A stretch of 64,000 nt of DNA, from NCBI RefSeq assembly GCF_020567425.1, contig NZ_JAJCVJ010000001.1, positions 1,364,001 to 1,428,000 of the forward strand, in the 5' to 3' direction. The notes below the pieces were generated by a model. The model was not told the origin of the DNA and ran no database searches. It worked only from the letters and a program-made list of their open reading frames with translations. The DNA is from Salinirubrum litoreum. Lineage in GTDB: Archaea; Halobacteriota; Halobacteria; Halobacteriales; Haloferacaceae. The position numbers and the translations under genes are program-made. Positions 20,532 to 61,487 of this stretch are shown here, in pieces. Every line of letters starts with the position of its first letter. Within the stretch, counting starts at the first letter, position 1.

Positions 20532-21325
20532 TGAACTCGGCTGGATCGGTTTCGGACGACGAGCGGTGAACACTCCCGAACGATCCGGATTCTGTCGAAC
20601 ATAGCGCAGACGACGAGGGGTGAAAGCCCCCGGCGTCTCGATGGTCCGCGACTTGGTGCGCTCCTCAGTCGGTCGAGCCAGCAAGCTGGCTCTCCCTCCC
20701 TGCGGTGCTAGCCGGCGTCGGGGACCAGTCGAGACGCCGGCCCCTTTCAGTCCCACCCGAACTCTGCGACCCATCACGTCGTCACTGGTCGTCACCCGGC
20801 AAATCGTCGCAGATTCGGAATCCGGGTCGTTCGTACTCCACCACACCTCCCCGACTGCTGAGCGACCGACCTGCGAGCAGGTCCTCGCTGTCGCTCGGAC
20901 ACTGCTCGGTGTCGGTCGCCAGCAGATCGCATCCCGTCGGATTCCGGGTTGTCGTCAAGAGTGTCGGGTGACGAGTGTGGCGTGCGCCTTCATCGAAAAT
21001 TCGGCGCGCGCGAGGAACGCGTGCGAGGGAGGCGGAGGTGGGCGGTGCGGAGAACCCCCGCCGAGGCTGGGGAGGACGAGGTGCGGTGCTGTGCGGTCGC
21101 GGTGGCGGTTCCCCGTGCTAGCACGAGTCGCGGTGTTGTCGCGGTCTGCGGTGTGGTTGCGGATGCGGTTCCTCGCGCTAGCACGAGTAGTGGTGCTGTG
21201 GCGGTCGCGGTTTGTTGTGCAGTAGCAGTCGCAGTCTGGGTGCTAGCACGATCACGGATCACAGTGCTGTCACAATCACCGACGTACCACTCCCCACCAC
21301 AGAAATCGACGAACACGACCCCACG
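20532..21325 (+). repeat. Dispersed structured intergenic element, copy 2
   Basis: This occupies the 915-bp gap between the rpl11 promoter and uppS. The leading motif occurs twice (20551-20567 and 20603-20618). The head inverted repeat has left arm 20619-20641 and right arm 20729-20758, with a different ~87-bp interior from copy 1. The second hairpin set has outer stem GCGACCGAC (20862-20870)/GTCGGTCGC (20911-20919) and inner CGAGCAG/CTGCTCG. The core hairpin is GGCGGAGGT (21031-21039), loop GGGCGGTGCGGAGA (21040-21053), ACCCCCGCC (21054-21062). The tail carries three GCTAGCACGA motifs, two of them within GTGCTAGCAC palindromes (21117-21126, 21240-21249). The limits are estimates. Confidence 0.72.
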
Positions 21326-37927: not shown

Positions 37928-38690
37928 GGCGTGAACTCTGTCGAGTCGGTCGCGGACGACGAGAGGAGGTGAAAGCCCCCGGCCCCTTTGAGTCCCACCC
38001 GTCGAACTCTGCGACCCATCGTGCAACTCGCGGTGGACCAGTCGCTTTCAGCGTGCGCGCCTCCCTGCGACCGTCGGCGTGCCTGAGGCGGCCTCACGCC
38101 GCCGAAGTGCCCGAGATGAACGCGCGCCAGCCCGTTCGACTGGTGGGTGTGATGTGAGTCGGACCCTCCGGTCAGGTGTTGCGGTGCGGTGCTGTCGGCG
38201 CGCGCGGCTTGACGCGTGCGAGGGAGGGGTCGCGGGCGGTGCGGAGAGCGTCCTCGTGAGGGAACCGAACGAGGGCTGGCAAGAGCTTCGCTCTTGCTCT
38301 GACCCCGAGGCTGGGGAGGTTCGAGGTGCTGTCGCGGTCGCGGTGCGGTTCCTCGCGCTAGCAATCGTAGCGGTGCTGTCGTGGTCGCGGTCTGCGGTGC
38401 TGTCGCGGTCGCGGTCTGCTGTGCTGTCGTGGTCGCGGTCTGCGGTGCTGTCGCGGTCGCGGTCTGCGGTGCTGTCGTGGTCGCGGTCTGCGGTGCTGTC
38501 GGCGGTCTGCTGTGCTGTCGTGGTCGCGGTCTGCGGTGCTGTCGTGGTCGCGGTCTGCGGTGCTGTCGCGGTCGCGGTCTGCGGTGCTGTCGGCGGTCTG
38601 CTGTGCTGGCACGGTCACGGGTCGCAACGCGGTCGCAGTAGCTATCGCGGATGCTGATCTGATTACCGCCGACAGTCACGACACACGTAC
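37928..38690 (+). repeat. Dispersed structured intergenic element, copy 3
   Basis: It fills nearly all of the 875-bp gap after the BrkB gene. The leading motif CGCGGACGACGAG (37951-37963) is followed by head arms fused back to back (37969-38000), lacking the interior seen in copies 1 and 2. A long-range stem ACCAGTCG (38037-38044)/CGACTGGT (38137-38144) encloses a GGCGGC-CTCAC-GCCGCC hairpin (38087-38103). The core hairpin GGGGTCGC (38226-38233), loop GGGCGGTGCGGAGA, GCG...ACCCC (to 38306) has a 51-nt insertion in the 3' arm. The insertion has its own hairpin (GCAAGAG-CTTCG-CTCTTGC). A 24-bp tandem repeat tail follows. Limits are approximate. Confidence 0.72.
38366..38608. repeat. 24-bp tandem repeat array in element 3 tail
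   Basis: About ten units of a 24-bp sequence close to GGTCGCGGTCTGCGGTGCTG plus TCGY, with two units shortened to about 18 bp (GCTGTCGGCGGTCTG). The unit is a multiple of three, so several frames stay open on both strands, giving meaningless Arg/Pro/Gln- or Asp/Ser-rich readings. There are no spacers, so it is not a CRISPR array. Confidence 0.75.
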
Positions 38691-56639: not shown

Positions 56640-57200
56640 GGAGATCGGGGGTTCGGGTGTGAGGGCTGTGACTGTATCGTGGACTGTGACTGCTACTGCG
56701 ACCACTACTGCACCGCAGACCGCGACAGCATCCGCACCGCAGACTGCGACAGCACCGCGACTCGATCCGGGACAACCGGAATATTCGACCGCATCCGCAC
56801 AGCACCGCGACCGCGTCAGCACCGCACCTCAGTCCCCCCAACCTCGGGTGGCTCTCCGCACCGCCCGCCACCCTCCCTCGCGCGTTGCTCGCGCGCCGAC
56901 CGCAACCGCACTGCGACAGCCGAACTGAATTCCCGACTCACGTCACACGCACCAGTCGAGTGGGCTGGCGCGACACCTCGGCGGCGTGGGGCCGCCTCGC
57001 GCGACCTCCCTGTCGCGCACCTCGGCGGCGCAGGGCCGCCTCGGGCGACGCCGACGGTCACAGGGAGGCGCTCGCGCTGAAATCGACTGGTCCACCGGCC
57101 GTTGCGTGCGCTTTCGCAGAAGCCACCGGGTGGGACTGAAAGGGGCCGGCGTCTCCAACTCACCCGACAGGAGCTACCTCGAAGACCGAGTGTCCCGCGA
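56640..57200 (-). repeat. Dispersed structured intergenic element, copy 4 (inverted)
   Basis: It occupies most of the 749-bp gap between GT4 and tbsP in opposite orientation to copies 1-3. Read leftward: head right arm only (57156-57128, ...CCCCTTTCAGTCCCACCC), stem CGACTGGT (57084-57091)/ACCAGTCG (56951-56958), a CCTCCCTGT (57005-57013)/ACAGGGAGG (57060-57068) stem, and two GGCGGC-N5-GCCGCC hairpins (57024-57040, 56980-56996). Then the core hairpin with stem GGGTGGC/GCCACCC (56846-56873 including the loop), GAGGTTGGGG, and a GCGGT/CAGT-rich tail to about 56645. The left head arm is missing. Confidence 0.72.
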
Positions 57201-57306: not shown

Positions 57307-58131
57307 TCAGTTCAGCATGCTCATCGCCACGCTGGCCAGCTGGTCCGTGTTGGCGGACTTCAGCTGGTCGTCGCCGAGCTTCAGGCGCAGGCGCGGGCGG
57401 CCGACGTCGATGGGAACCTTCTCGGTGTCGATCAGGCCCATGTCCTCGAGCTTCGTCTTCGTGCGGGAGAACGTCGCCTTGCTGGCGATGCCGACGTCCT
57501 CGCCCCACTTGCTGATGTCGTACAGCAGCACGTCGTTCTTCGCCGCGACGAGCAGGCTGATGGTGACCTCGTCGAGACCCTCGCCGTCGCCACGGGCCGT
57601 CTCGAGGGAGGCGAGCACCGAGTCGAAGTCCGAACGCGAGGCCTCGCCGATGTCGCTGTCGAGGGTCTCCCGGACGCGGGAGATGGGCGGCGTGCGGAGC
57701 TTGAAGTCCGGCGCGGCCTCCCACAGTTCGGTGTAGGCGTCGAAGGCGCTCTCGACGAACGCCTCGTCGTCGGTCGTCAGGGCGGCCACGCGGTCGCCGG
57801 CGCTGACGACTGCCCGCACCGCGTCGCTGGTGACGAGCAGGGAGTTGTCCACGCTCTCCTCGGCCGTCCGCATCGACAGCGTGCCGGCGTCGATGAGGTC
57901 GGCCGCGTTGCTGGCGACGATGAAGTCGTCCATCACGCCCTTCAGGACGGACTCGTCGGCGATCATCCGCATCGTCGGCAGGTCGCCCTCGAACGCGGTG
58001 GCGACTTCGACGAGCGATTCGATTGCCTCGGCCGAGGGGTCGACGATCAGGAGTTCGCCGTCGGTCTCCTCGAGTGCGGCGGCGAGGATATCCTCGATCT
58101 GGGTTTCAAGTAAATTTGACTTCGTACTCAT
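57307..58131 (-). CDS. tbsP: Transcriptional regulator TbsP (DUF5821)
   Basis: A 274-residue protein: MSTKSNLLETQIEDILAAAL, then ELLIVDPSAEAIESLVEVAT and MIADESVLKGVMDDFIVAS. The C-terminal ~90 residues form a winged-helix DNA-binding part (VTISLLVAAKNDVLLYDIS, SKATFSRTKTKLEDMGLIDT). This matches haloarchaeal TbsP, shown in Haloferax to act with TrmB on sugar-metabolism promoters. A very AT-rich TATA region (aaatatttaatatt, 58151-58166) lies 20-35 bp upstream of the ATG. Confidence 0.8.
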   Translation of the reverse strand: MSTKSNLLETQIEDILAAALEETDGELLIVDPSAEAIESLVEVATAFEGDLPTMRMIADESVLKGVMDDFIVASNAADLIDAGTLSMRTAEESVDNSLLVTSDAVRAVVSAGDRVAALTTDDEAFVESAFDAYTELWEAAPDFKLRTPPISRVRETLDSDIGEASRSDFDSVLASLETARGDGEGLDEVTISLLVAAKNDVLLYDISKWGEDVGIASKATFSRTKTKLEDMGLIDTEKVPIDVGRPRLRLKLGDDQLKSANTDQLASVAMSMLN

Positions 58132-58150
58132 ACGGTCTCAATCGCGCTTG

Positions 58151-58166
58151 AAATATTTAATATTAA
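58151..58166 (-). promoter_or_regulatory. tbsP promoter (AT-rich TATA)
   Basis: AATATTAAATATTT read leftward is the strongest TATA-like element in this part of the window, at the right distance for a leaderless or short-leader tbsP message. Confidence 0.6.
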
Positions 58167-58304
58167 CGCTGCCTATCGCCCAGAAGCCACGACATTTGTG
58201 CCCGCCAGCGTCACGGAGTGAGCGTCGATGTCAGCATTCGGACGGTCGTTGGTGTCTGAAATCCAATAGAAAGCTGTAAGTAGTTGTACTATTGAAGAAA
58301 TAGC

Positions 58305-58475
58305 ATGATGCTCGGTAACAGAATCCGTGGGCACTGCATCCGGCATTCGAGACTGCTCGTGATCCTCGTGGTCTTGAGCATTCTGCTCGCAACACAAGGC
58401 GTCGCGGCGGCCGGTGGGGGCGGACTCGAAGCGACCATCGGCCAGCAGGGACACGTCATCGAACCCGGTCCCTGA
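58305..58475 (+). CDS. Small secreted peptide next to CHAT protease
   Basis: A 56-residue frame MMLGNRIRGHCIRHSRLLVI and onward: basic N-terminus, one hydrophobic helix (about residues 17-31), an AAA-type signal-cleavage-like site, then a short Gly/Glu-rich end finishing HVIEPGP. It is reminiscent of the small DUF7503-like peptides of haloarchaea, a resemblance from memory. It ends 9 bp before the stop of the CHAT-domain gene on the other strand. A promoter-like region (gtagttgtactattg) lies ahead. Confidence 0.6.
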   Translation: MMLGNRIRGHCIRHSRLLVILVVLSILLATQGVAAAGGGGLEATIGQQGHVIEPGP

Positions 58476-58484
58476 CCGTCCCGG

Positions 58485-60536
58485 TTACTCTTTATCGAAG
58501 TGGTGTCGGAGGTCCGCCGACCAGTGGATGTCGCCGTCGTAGATAACGGCAGTGTCAGCCGTTTCGAGGAAGCCGACGAGTTCGTCGGCCGTCACGACCG
58601 TCTCCGTGGGGTTACCGAGCAGTCGTGCCTCGTCGTGGTCGGTTCCGAGGTCTTTGCACCGGTAGTTGCTGCCGAAGAACTCCGGAGAGTACACGTCGTA
58701 CTCCAGTGAGAACCGCCCGTCGCTCCGGCGTTCCAGTACCGCCCGCGACGGCGCGACCTCGTTGGACTGCGTGAGCCTGTGTGTCCCGTCGCCGACGACG
58801 GTGTAGTCTTTGCCCATCATGATCCGCCGCCGGGCGAGTTGGAGCGCGTACTCGATGCTGAAGCCGTGGATCAACAGTCTGGCGAACGCGGTGCCGACGC
58901 GGGCCGCCTGACTGTCGAGTACCTTGTTGAACGTGACCGCCCCCGCGACACTCCCCTGTTCGACGAGTTCGACGCCCTCGTTGAACGATCCACAGGCGTT
59001 CAGGAAGAAGACCTGCGTGTTGCTCTCCGACAGCGACGAGACGGCCAGGTTCCCGTCGGCACACCGAAGCCCGTCCGCCTCGCAGTGGCCGATGTAGTGG
59101 ACGAAGTCGTGTGACGCCTCGAACACGTCCGCCAGTTCTTCACGGGTTAGGTGTTCACGAACCGAGATGTCGATGTCCAGTTCCTCGGCACGTTTACGGT
59201 AGATGTCCGCCGCGTCGGCGTGTTCGTCGGACATCTCCGGATCGTTCAAGACGGCGACCACGGAGATGGAGTCCGTCGAGCGCCCGAGGTAGTCGAAGCG
59301 GTTCTCGTAGGCCGTCGGGATCGACTTGAACACGTCGATGGGTGCGCCGTCCGCGAGCCAGCCGTGCATCCGACCGGCCGCCAGGTTCGGCTTGATGACC
59401 TCGACCGAGGGCGGATCGCTCACCTGACGACGACGCCGGTAGAAGTCGTCGAGCGAGCGGGAGAGCCGTTCGTTCTGTTCGAGCGGTTCCGACTCGGCGA
59501 GATAGATCGTCGGGAGGTTGTGCAGGAGAAACGGAAGCACCTCGACGTACGCCGGTCGTGGGTCGACGTACATCGCCAGGTGCCACGTCGGCAACTCGTC
59601 GATCACGCGCTCGAAGGGCGCGTCGAGATACCGGCCGAGTCGCGCCGCGAGTCCGGCGTCGTACCACCGATCGGGGTCGATCCCGACGTCGTCCAACAGC
59701 CCGGCCTCTGCGGGTTCCGAGCCGTACGGCCCCGCAGACCGGACGAGACAGTCGAGGAAGAAGACTCGCGAGAGCAGGTCGGCGCTCTCCCGGCCCAGTT
59801 CCGTGGTCGCCAGTTCGTGCTCCCTGGTCGGTGTCTCGACGACGACCGACTGCCGGTCTTCGACCGTCACGGTCGCACCGAGGTAGTGCGCCAGCGACGC
59901 GACCGGAAAGAGACAGTCGAACGACCGGGGAGTCCTGATCGTGACGCCCGTGTCGAGTCGATCCGAGACCAGCGACTCGGGGATCGACACCGACTCGCCG
60001 GTCTCGACGCGGGCGGGGTGTCGTCGCATCGACGGGAACGTCCGGTCGGGCGTCTCGGTCTCGAACGACGGGAGGTGTGTCAGCGCCGTGGCGAGCCCAG
60101 ACGGTGTGGACGGGACGGTGATCGTCTCCTGTGGGACGCTCACCCGACTCTGAAAGCCGATCGTGACCTCGGTCGCGGACGGGAAGGTCACCAGGAGTGT
60201 GTCGTACCTCGGCGAGGAGATCTCCGCGGGCCCCGAGAAGCGGACGAAGGTCTTGACGTTGCCGTCCGCACAGAACACGTAGTCGCCCGACTCGACGGTC
60301 GTGGGGTCGTTCTCGCGGGACGGTTCGGCGACGACGTCGCCCGACACGCGTTCGACGTACGCGTAGACGTGTGGGAACTGCAGGTGTGTCGTCGTCGCCG
60401 TGATCGTCTTCTCGACGGGATGGTTCACCGACGTCGCGGTCCCGTCCGCCCGCCAGTCGTCCACGCCGACGGTGATCGTGTTCTTGCCCACGTCGACGGC
60501 TTTCACCCCCGACTCCGCCGGCTTCACCTCGATCAT
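58485..60536 (-). CDS. CHAT-domain (caspase-like) cysteine protease
   Basis: 683 residues from MIEVKPAESGVKAVDVGKNT (an ATG at 60554 adds six). The N-terminal ~400 residues are beta- and alpha-rich without a domain I can name. The C-terminal CHAT domain has the His motif DFVHYIGHCEADGL (likely catalytic His near residue 484) and the Cys motif QVFFLNACGSFNEG (Cys near 515), followed by IEYALQLARRRIMMGKDYTV. CHAT enzymes are caspase/separase relatives acting in regulated proteolysis. Its 3' end faces a tiny secreted-peptide gene. Confidence 0.88.
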   Translation of the reverse strand: MIEVKPAESGVKAVDVGKNTITVGVDDWRADGTATSVNHPVEKTITATTTHLQFPHVYAYVERVSGDVVAEPSRENDPTTVESGDYVFCADGNVKTFVRFSGPAEISSPRYDTLLVTFPSATEVTIGFQSRVSVPQETITVPSTPSGLATALTHLPSFETETPDRTFPSMRRHPARVETGESVSIPESLVSDRLDTGVTIRTPRSFDCLFPVASLAHYLGATVTVEDRQSVVVETPTREHELATTELGRESADLLSRVFFLDCLVRSAGPYGSEPAEAGLLDDVGIDPDRWYDAGLAARLGRYLDAPFERVIDELPTWHLAMYVDPRPAYVEVLPFLLHNLPTIYLAESEPLEQNERLSRSLDDFYRRRRQVSDPPSVEVIKPNLAAGRMHGWLADGAPIDVFKSIPTAYENRFDYLGRSTDSISVVAVLNDPEMSDEHADAADIYRKRAEELDIDISVREHLTREELADVFEASHDFVHYIGHCEADGLRCADGNLAVSSLSESNTQVFFLNACGSFNEGVELVEQGSVAGAVTFNKVLDSQAARVGTAFARLLIHGFSIEYALQLARRRIMMGKDYTVVGDGTHRLTQSNEVAPSRAVLERRSDGRFSLEYDVYSPEFFGSNYRCKDLGTDHDEARLLGNPTETVVTADELVGFLETADTAVIYDGDIHWSADLRHHFDKE

Positions 60537-60554
60537 TGATCGCGGACGGACCAT

Positions 60555-60683: not shown

Positions 60684-61487
60684 TTACCGGTTCCAGCCAC
60701 CCTCGAACGACTCGAAGTGCTCGCGGTCGTGGCCGTAGAGCACGTCGGCGTCGGTCCGGCGCTGGAGGTCCTTCAGCCACTGGAGGCTCTCGAACCAGTG
60801 GCGGTCGCTCCACAGTAACCCGGGACCGAGTGGCACCTCGTCCGTGTAGTTCGCGTCGACGTAACACTCGTCACCGGCGATCAGGACCGTCTCGTCCGGC
60901 AGGTCGAGACGTGCGCCGAGGACCCCCGGCGTGTGACCGGGCAGGTGGAGCAGTTCGAAGTCGTCGGCGAGGCTGTGCCGGTCGCGGTGGACGACCTCCC
61001 AGCGCAGGTCGTGATCGAAGTCCGCGGCGAGGTACGCGATGGAGCCTTCGGTCGTCTTGGCGCTGTAGTAGGCGAACTTGAGTTCCTCCTCGTGGACGTA
61101 GATCGGCGTGTCGGTGTCCGCGAAGTTGTGGAGGCCGCCCGCGTGGTCGAGGTGCAGGTGGGACATCACCACGGCGTCGATGTCGGCGAGATCGTAGCCC
61201 GCCCGGTCGAGGTCGGCCTCGAGGTCGTGGTCGGCGGCGTCGACGTGTTCGAAGGCGGCGTACAGCGGATCGGGCCAGTAGCCCGCACCGGCGTCGGGGT
61301 GTGACCCGGTATCCCAGAGATAGGTTCCCTCCGGGTGGTCGATCACGGCGGACCAGACCACGAAGTCGAGCATCTCGTGGTCCGGGTTCGGTTCCACGGC
61401 ACTCCCCATCGAGTAGCCGTCGATCACGTAGCCGGCGTCGGCGCGGACGGTACCCCGGTCGAGCAGGTGGACGGTCGCGTCTGCCAT
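60684..61487 (-). CDS. Metallo-beta-lactamase-fold hydrolase, N-acyl-homoserine-lactonase family
   Basis: A 267-residue MBL protein. The dinuclear metal motif is VVMSHLHLDHAGGLHNF (HxHxDH), with the later His and Asp in HLPGHTPGVLG and LIAGDECY, and a final His in LYGHDREHFE. This layout is shared with AiiA-type lactonases. In a haloarchaeon the substrate may be another lactone or ester. It is upstream of the CHAT gene, same strand, separated by the repeat region. Confidence 0.85.
   Translation of the reverse strand: MADATVHLLDRGTVRADAGYVIDGYSMGSAVEPNPDHEMLDFVVWSAVIDHPEGTYLWDTGSHPDAGAGYWPDPLYAAFEHVDAADHDLEADLDRAGYDLADIDAVVMSHLHLDHAGGLHNFADTDTPIYVHEEELKFAYYSAKTTEGSIAYLAADFDHDLRWEVVHRDRHSLADDFELLHLPGHTPGVLGARLDLPDETVLIAGDECYVDANYTDEVPLGPGLLWSDRHWFESLQWLKDLQRRTDADVLYGHDREHFESFEGGWNR

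Follow-up and report, generated by a model that had tools for sequence, protein, structure and literature searches.

We identified, in the haloarchaeon Salinirubrum litoreum, a convergent pair of genes encoding a clan CD (caspase/CHAT-type) cysteine protease and a micropeptide ending in Gly-Pro, and the conservation of this arrangement shows the two genes to form a functional unit. The age and wide spread of the pair make it probable that the peptide is a target or a regulator belonging to this protease, and its likeliest role appears to be that of a substrate. Our leading explanation, which could as readily be right as wrong, is a pan-haloarchaeal module in which an intact, cytosolic clan CD protease would act with a dedicated, tail-recognised micropeptide ligand, most likely its substrate. 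The link between the Pfam family DUF7503 and the protease, a helix-less form of the peptide and a repeat-array form are reported here as new. The outcome is a near-universal, multi-copy protease-micropeptide module that has been hidden under the labels 'hypothetical protein' and DUF7503. A preliminary description of this DNA had called the two-gene unit undescribed, and the pair was not found in the open-licence PMC literature searched (no preprints).

The two open reading frames lie in the window, that is, the whole stretch of 64,000 nucleotides that was analysed, and converge with their stop codons 9 bp apart, as first described (Table 1). Position 60536, previously given as the start of the protease gene, is the internal Met7, and the residue then called Cys515 is Cys521 in the 689-residue numbering used here. 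The single hydrophobic helix followed by AAA that had been noted in the peptide is present in its sequence; upstream of it stands His-Ser-Arg in the window peptide and His/Asn-Pro-Arg/Lys in relatives. The window peptide has no Pfam or NCBIfam match, DUF7503 included (0 families at E<=1), and it was grouped by an HMM, built with the window peptide included, with peptides that occupy the equivalent place in other genomes. The tbsP gene lies downstream of the protease, past the peptide gene, and shares its strand with the protease; tbsP and the peptide gene have divergent starts out of one intergenic region (58132-58304). A search for tRNA genes near the protease-peptide locus found none. Elsewhere in the window, a 24-bp-like unit (GCGGTGCTGTCGTGGTCGCGGTCT) is repeated in tandem in low-complexity arrays at 38325-38608 and also at 21087-21211 and 56698-56758, and units resembling them occur at other places too.

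Table 1. Features of the protease-micropeptide locus (positions within the window).
Feature	Position	Strand	Basis or remark
Micropeptide gene	58305-58475	+	ORF, 56 aa, C-terminus ...IEPGP; a divergent member within the group of GP-tail peptides
Hydrophobic helix and AAA, residues 17-36 of the window peptide	58353-58412	+	Sequence, hydropathy
C-terminal Gly-Pro of the window peptide, conserved element of the peptide group	58467-58472	+	Tail-less-HMM peptide set
Gap between the convergent stop codons, 9 bp	58476-58484	none	
Clan CD (caspase/CHAT-type) cysteine protease gene	58485-60554	-	689 aa from first ATG; model and fold matches
Caspase-fold region, protease residues 322-597	58764-59591	-	VIA-align
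Catalytic His490 of the protease	59085-59087	-	Conserved in 216/216 distinct homologues
Catalytic Cys521 of the protease	58992-58994	-	Conserved in 216/216 distinct homologues
N-terminal part of the protease, residues 1-318	59601-60554	-	Model pLDDT 91.5
tbsP regulator gene	57307-58131	-	NCBIfam NF047393, over its cut-off
Metallo-beta-lactamase-fold gene, upstream of the protease	60684-61487		Profile search

For the protease, an AlphaFold2 model (43 sequences; mean pLDDT 88.2, pTM 0.89) gave SAVED-CHAT, gingipain R and separase as the top Foldseek ranks. VIA-align matched residues ~322-597 to gingipain R 1cvr (Z 19.6, rmsd 3.2, 247 aligned), separase 5fc2 (Z 18.1, rmsd 3.7, 221 aligned), SAVED-CHAT 8tl0 (Z 17.3, rmsd 2.5, 169 aligned) and Csx29 8eex (Z 14.3, rmsd 3.4, 222 aligned). 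The catalytic His and Cys were rightly reported as retained: together with Glu444 and His486, they are identical in every one of the 216 distinct homologues. Both features of clan CD membership are found, the caspase-hemoglobinase fold over residues 322-597 and the His-Cys dyad (H490, C521), and the modelled fold and invariant dyad strongly indicate that the protease is catalytically active. A second cysteine, Cys498 (59061-59063), eight residues past His490, is near-invariant (215/216 homologues). The earlier label 'CHAT' is weak by sequence: the window protease scores 14.9 bits against Pfam CHAT (PF12770), under the curated cut-off of 24, and 7 of the 16 relatives in alignment A1 match it at E<=0.1 (best 1.5e-5). 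Profile A2, run against the sequences of solved structures, gave 0 matches at E<=10. What stands firm is the modelled caspase/CHAT-type fold, and we describe the protease as CHAT-like by fold and outside the Pfam CHAT family by sequence score. The N-terminal part is modelled as beta-rich and then alpha/beta; taken alone it showed no confident known fold, with best PDB matches that are partial, to glycosidases, at a TMq of about 0.2, and it is possibly a sensor or regulatory part. We take the protease to be cytosolic because it has no evident signal sequence.

The pairing was assessed in 188 distinct protease genes that had not been selected for the peptide, drawn from the own genome, the family list, the class list, the named genomes and genus g9, with duplicates removed. 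A gene counted as paired if it had a convergent ORF, 30 aa or longer, with a GP end and a stop codon lying between -60 and +400 bp of the protease stop. Such an ORF was found at the 3' end of 152/188 genes, compared with 2/188 for a control window placed within the gene and equally wide, and so the lack of conservation that the preliminary description had named as grounds for giving up its proposal was not what we found across haloarchaea. For a further 7 genes the ORF has a hydrophobic stretch followed by GP with a short extension, and 29/188 have neither form. By sample, before deduplication, pairing was seen in 5/7 genes of the own genome, 22/29 of the family top and 46/60 of the family further sets, 28/30 of the class top and 17/20 of the class further sets, and 37/46 of the named genomes (one unusable). 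Counted per ORF, and with DUF7503-selected loci taken in, GP endings amount to 210/1343 in the target zone, 8/3169 antisense inside the gene and 9/1195 on the same strand downstream. The converse also holds: 55 loci were fetched by DUF7503, and all 53 usable ones (L042 being a chance match at E 2.09 and L221 lying at a contig end) have an adjoining protease with a GP-ending convergent ORF. Among relatives the median stop-to-stop gap is 6 bp (179 distinct peptides, in which the GP end is 100% by selection). The first scan, which gave 68 proteases with a peptide and 57 without, used models of the helix types and so overlooked the peptides of Halorussus and those with no helix; it is superseded by these counts. 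A median dN/dS of 0.249 for the peptides (222 usable of 230 pairs) is supporting only, the pairs being chosen at >60% identity and not independent. Automatic family labels of the peptide set are rough ('TM other', n=80, mixes helix and helix-less peptides), and the per-position tables were left unused. Protease copies with no visible GP peptide are L005 and L007 of the own genome, L022, L024, L029 and L033, Halarchaeum L103-L105, and Halomarina L110, L112 and L113; at such copies the peptide may have been lost, have moved or be too diverged.

Protease homologues were found in 365/391 Halobacteria genomes (drawn evenly), in 144/170 genomes of the window's own family and in seven copies in the own genome, where eight rows of matches include two that fall in one gene. 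Outside Halobacteria, a phylum draw of 294 yielded them in 4 genomes of one family, and those four loci have no convergent GP peptide. These distant homologues are L265-L268, and the active-site region of L265, as read in the end of its sequence, is altered (IGRHN, LCTDSS). Plasmids of haloarchaea carry copies as well (25 records), in most cases under the annotation 'hypothetical protein', and a comparison of the protease with 50,697 phage records gave no match. Window-type proteases have tbsP after them, in the same orientation, in 28/28, 44/45 and 48/50 usable loci of three samples and in 0/53 DUF7503-selected loci. Because this synteny is confined to the window-type loci, we recognise one syntenic core copy and further paralogues. 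The order protease, convergent peptide, tbsP (57307-60554) is kept in nearly all window-type loci (relatives L009-L037 and L073-L149). DUF7503 itself occurs in 343/391 Halobacteria genomes at E<=0.1, and in 334 over the cut-off; among 14 named control genomes it exceeds the cut-off in Haloferax volcanii only, and since chance matches at E<=10 arose in 11/14 of these genomes, over-cut-off results alone were used. None of the 20 listed genomes without the protease has a DUF7503 match better than E 0.009.

Three of the four own-genome paralogue peptides exceed the DUF7503 cut-off of 27 bits (E 5.8e-19, 3e-15 and 1.6e-8), and the fourth scores 23.4. We distinguish, partly by eye, five forms of the peptide: (a) DUF7503, about 44 aa, xYLxxHPRMxGVLFTxLLLLSQAGxxAA...GP; (b) the window type, 55-70 aa, with the same plan as DUF7503 but looser; (c) the Halorussus type, MRGKIRQWFVDNPRA...GP; (d) the Natrialbaceae type, about 40-50 aa, which has no hydrophobic stretch and ends in AKRVSTYGGP, -STYGGP or similar; and (e) the repeat arrays of Haloplanus. 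A tail-less HMM recovered 122 distinct membrane-type peptides, 113 of which end exactly in GP and 6 in GP plus 1-8 aa; of the remaining three, two have a Gly but no Pro at the end, one of these being annotated as a 44-aa gene on a plasmid of Haladaptatus, and the third departs in another way. What is conserved in these peptides is the -GP tail rather than the membrane helix. Every one of the four Pro and four Gly codons and of the three stop codons is in use, which places the selection on the peptide. The alternative of an element acting as DNA or RNA was rejected on the same codon usage and on the RNA fold at the window's stop-stop junction, which is nothing unusual (z 0.39). The frame might instead be a regulatory leader, with Gly-Pro before the stop stalling the ribosome and affecting transcription of the convergent protease, as the -GP-stop ending and the abutting convergent stops (median gap 6 bp) could suggest. 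We consider this extremely unlikely: GP is followed by further residues in 6/122 peptides and is repeated internally in the arrays, the junction has no RNA structure, and conservation of the peptide reaches far beyond its last two codons.

The Haloplanus arrays bear most directly on the tail. Exact matches to plasmids gave this genus (g18) its name, and likewise Halobellus (g20). At 9/12 Haloplanus loci the peptide is helix-less and consists of tandem GN[GS][GS][GA][IV]SGP units, with a stop overlap of -4 bp and copy numbers of 2, 4, 4 (incomplete, masked bases), 5, 7, 7, 10, 13 and 14. The other three loci have the DUF7503 form, with the tails GNSGAISGP, SNGGGISGP and SNGAATSGP. In arrays with three or more copies, the 9-mers of one array show 0 amino-acid differences and a mean of 1.5-4.3 silent changes per 27 nt; the 13 copies of L170, for example, all differ in DNA. 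Each following unit is preceded by a linker [YMFS][TN]AD, whose A and D are present in 57/57 units, both codons being silently varied. On a tree of the 12 proteases the helix and array forms need three changes, forced by supported branches, and the sister pairs L175/L177 and L179/L183 have unlike peptide forms. From this anatomy we infer that the tail is kept by selection and that copies of it can take the helix's place. This helix-to-repeat switch is a natural experiment on recognition by the protease. The window peptide has a single tail, and the layout of a multi-copy precursor is confined to these nine Haloplanus loci. An Arg/Lys cleavage site before the helix (His/Asn-Pro-Arg) was rejected, as basic residues are absent from the repeat units of Haloplanus.

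The same forms bear on whether the peptide acts in the membrane. The preliminary description had suggested a pore and a defence role, and a protease-triggered membrane pore, or another defence or cell-death effector with gasdermin- or Craspase-like logic, would fit the short conserved hydrophobic helix of the DUF7503 forms and the dedicated partners with which bacterial CHAT-type proteases are reported to work. We find this very improbable. The helix is dispensable, as Natrialbaceae peptides have none and in Haloplanus it is replaced by tail repeats, while the -GP tail stays. In addition, PADLOC matched 0/7 of the own-genome proteases, the phage records gave no match, and the protease is near-universal with a window-type core copy syntenic with tbsP. 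A stress role, which the preliminary description had also suggested, is conceivable. Tandem identical cores are typical of pheromone precursors. The tail could thus be a secreted peptide signal of ~9 residues, freed by signal peptidase in the helix form and made as a polyprotein in Haloplanus, with the protease as processing enzyme or cytosolic receptor; the residues after the small-residue site in Haloplanus helix forms (GNSGAISGP, SNGGGISGP) do match the repeat unit. Such a signal is nonetheless decidedly unlikely, given that the array and Natrialbaceae forms show no signal sequence, that the helix is strongly conserved, unlike most signal peptides, and that neither a receptor nor an exporter was identified.

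We favour a substrate first, then an inhibitor, then a peptide signal. In the substrate model the protease would recognise the peptide by its short C-terminal tail ending in Gly-Pro, which conservation and repetition suggest to be the working part of the peptide; the membrane helix would anchor this tail in most lineages, the tail being free or repeated elsewhere. The protease would then cut the peptide and so release or destroy it, which is the least certain step, and in Haloplanus the cut may fall after Asp, at [Y/M/F][T/N]AD|GN. A substrate is favoured because the protease looks active in every copy, its partner adjoins it, and the arrays carry a caspase-like [Y/M/F][T/N]AD|G linker. Several observations weigh against it: the 29/188 protease genes with no such peptide nearby (Halarchaeum, Halomarina and two of the seven own-genome copies among them), the three membrane-type peptides with no GP end (two Gly-only, one otherwise altered), and the confinement of the Asp site to the Haloplanus arrays. 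Moreover, the positive-inside rule would place the tail of the membrane forms outside, beyond the reach of a cytosolic protease after insertion; recognition may therefore precede insertion, or else the tail may be a product and not a bait.

Alternatively, the peptide could serve the protease as its own inhibitor or pseudosubstrate and keep it inactive, at the membrane in those forms that have a helix, as securin does for separase and the repeat-bearing calpastatin for calpain. In favour of this, separase ranks with the closest folds, several tail copies would give higher avidity, and a near-universal protease with an intact dyad would need control. Against this, the same 29/188 proteases would lack their inhibitor nearby, convergent genes with separate promoters fix its dose poorly, and the Gly/Ser-rich tail units would offer little to fill specificity pockets, so that we hold inhibition to be somewhat unlikely.

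A more far-reaching reading is a haloarchaeal caspase-type peptide-processing system, which we regard as unlikely. DUF7503 and its relatives would be precursors of short -GP peptides, single behind a helix or in up to 14 tandem copies, and the protease would be both their Asp-directed maturation enzyme (cutting, e.g., YTAD|GNGGGISGP) and the source of the caspase-like activity of Haloferax volcanii. If this reading were true, it would be an archaeal caspase with a genetically encoded partner. According to PMC3615174, H. volcanii extracts have very high and specific caspase-like activity (LEVD > VEID > IETD) and no measurable activity on trypsin substrates; the paper describes archaeal genomes as having no homologues, and its section 7 calls for the responsible proteins to be identified. 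An HMM survey reports metacaspases in 5/114 archaeal genomes (PMC3501461). In genus g9, which a plasmid match of 82% identity over 79% assigns tentatively to Haloferax, 15/15 genomes have exactly one protease match, and each of these 15 proteases has a DUF7503-type peptide with an abutting stop. For H. volcanii itself we infer a protease gene from its DUF7503 match over the cut-off. The protease family is a candidate, and nothing more, for the source of the caspase-like activity in that species, and the proteasome is another possible source. The module thus gives a Pfam DUF a functional lead, the protease a candidate natural ligand, and the H. volcanii activity a candidate gene.

Compared with known systems, the module is closest on the peptide side to DUF7503 (Pfam PF24335): own-genome paralogue peptides are members and share the position, helix and -GP tail, whereas the window peptide scores nothing and the Pfam entry assigns no function. 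The SAVED-CHAT filament protease 8tl0 is the best Foldseek match and has the CHAT catalytic fold (Z 17.3); however, the catalytic half alone is matched, no SAVED domain is among the N-terminal matches listed, and the partner here is a micropeptide. Craspase, in which Csx29/TPR-CHAT acts on the substrate Csx30, likewise joins a protease of CHAT type to a partner of its own (8eex, Z 14.3), but Csx30 is a full-size protein, not a micropeptide, and the two neighbours profiled here (tbsP and the metallo-beta-lactamase fold) include no Cas gene. Separase-securin and gingipains R and K provide the best structural matches (Z about 14-21), with identities of 10-15%, a match restricted to the caspase-fold region and a partner that is not homologous. 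The bacterial gasdermin module differs in the size of its partner, several hundred aa, against 56 aa here and 30-90 aa among the peptides listed. Finally, the caspase-like activity of H. volcanii, as reported in PMC3615174, resembles the module in being a caspase-type activity in a haloarchaeon, one whose genome was described as having no homologues, and in a species that has DUF7503.
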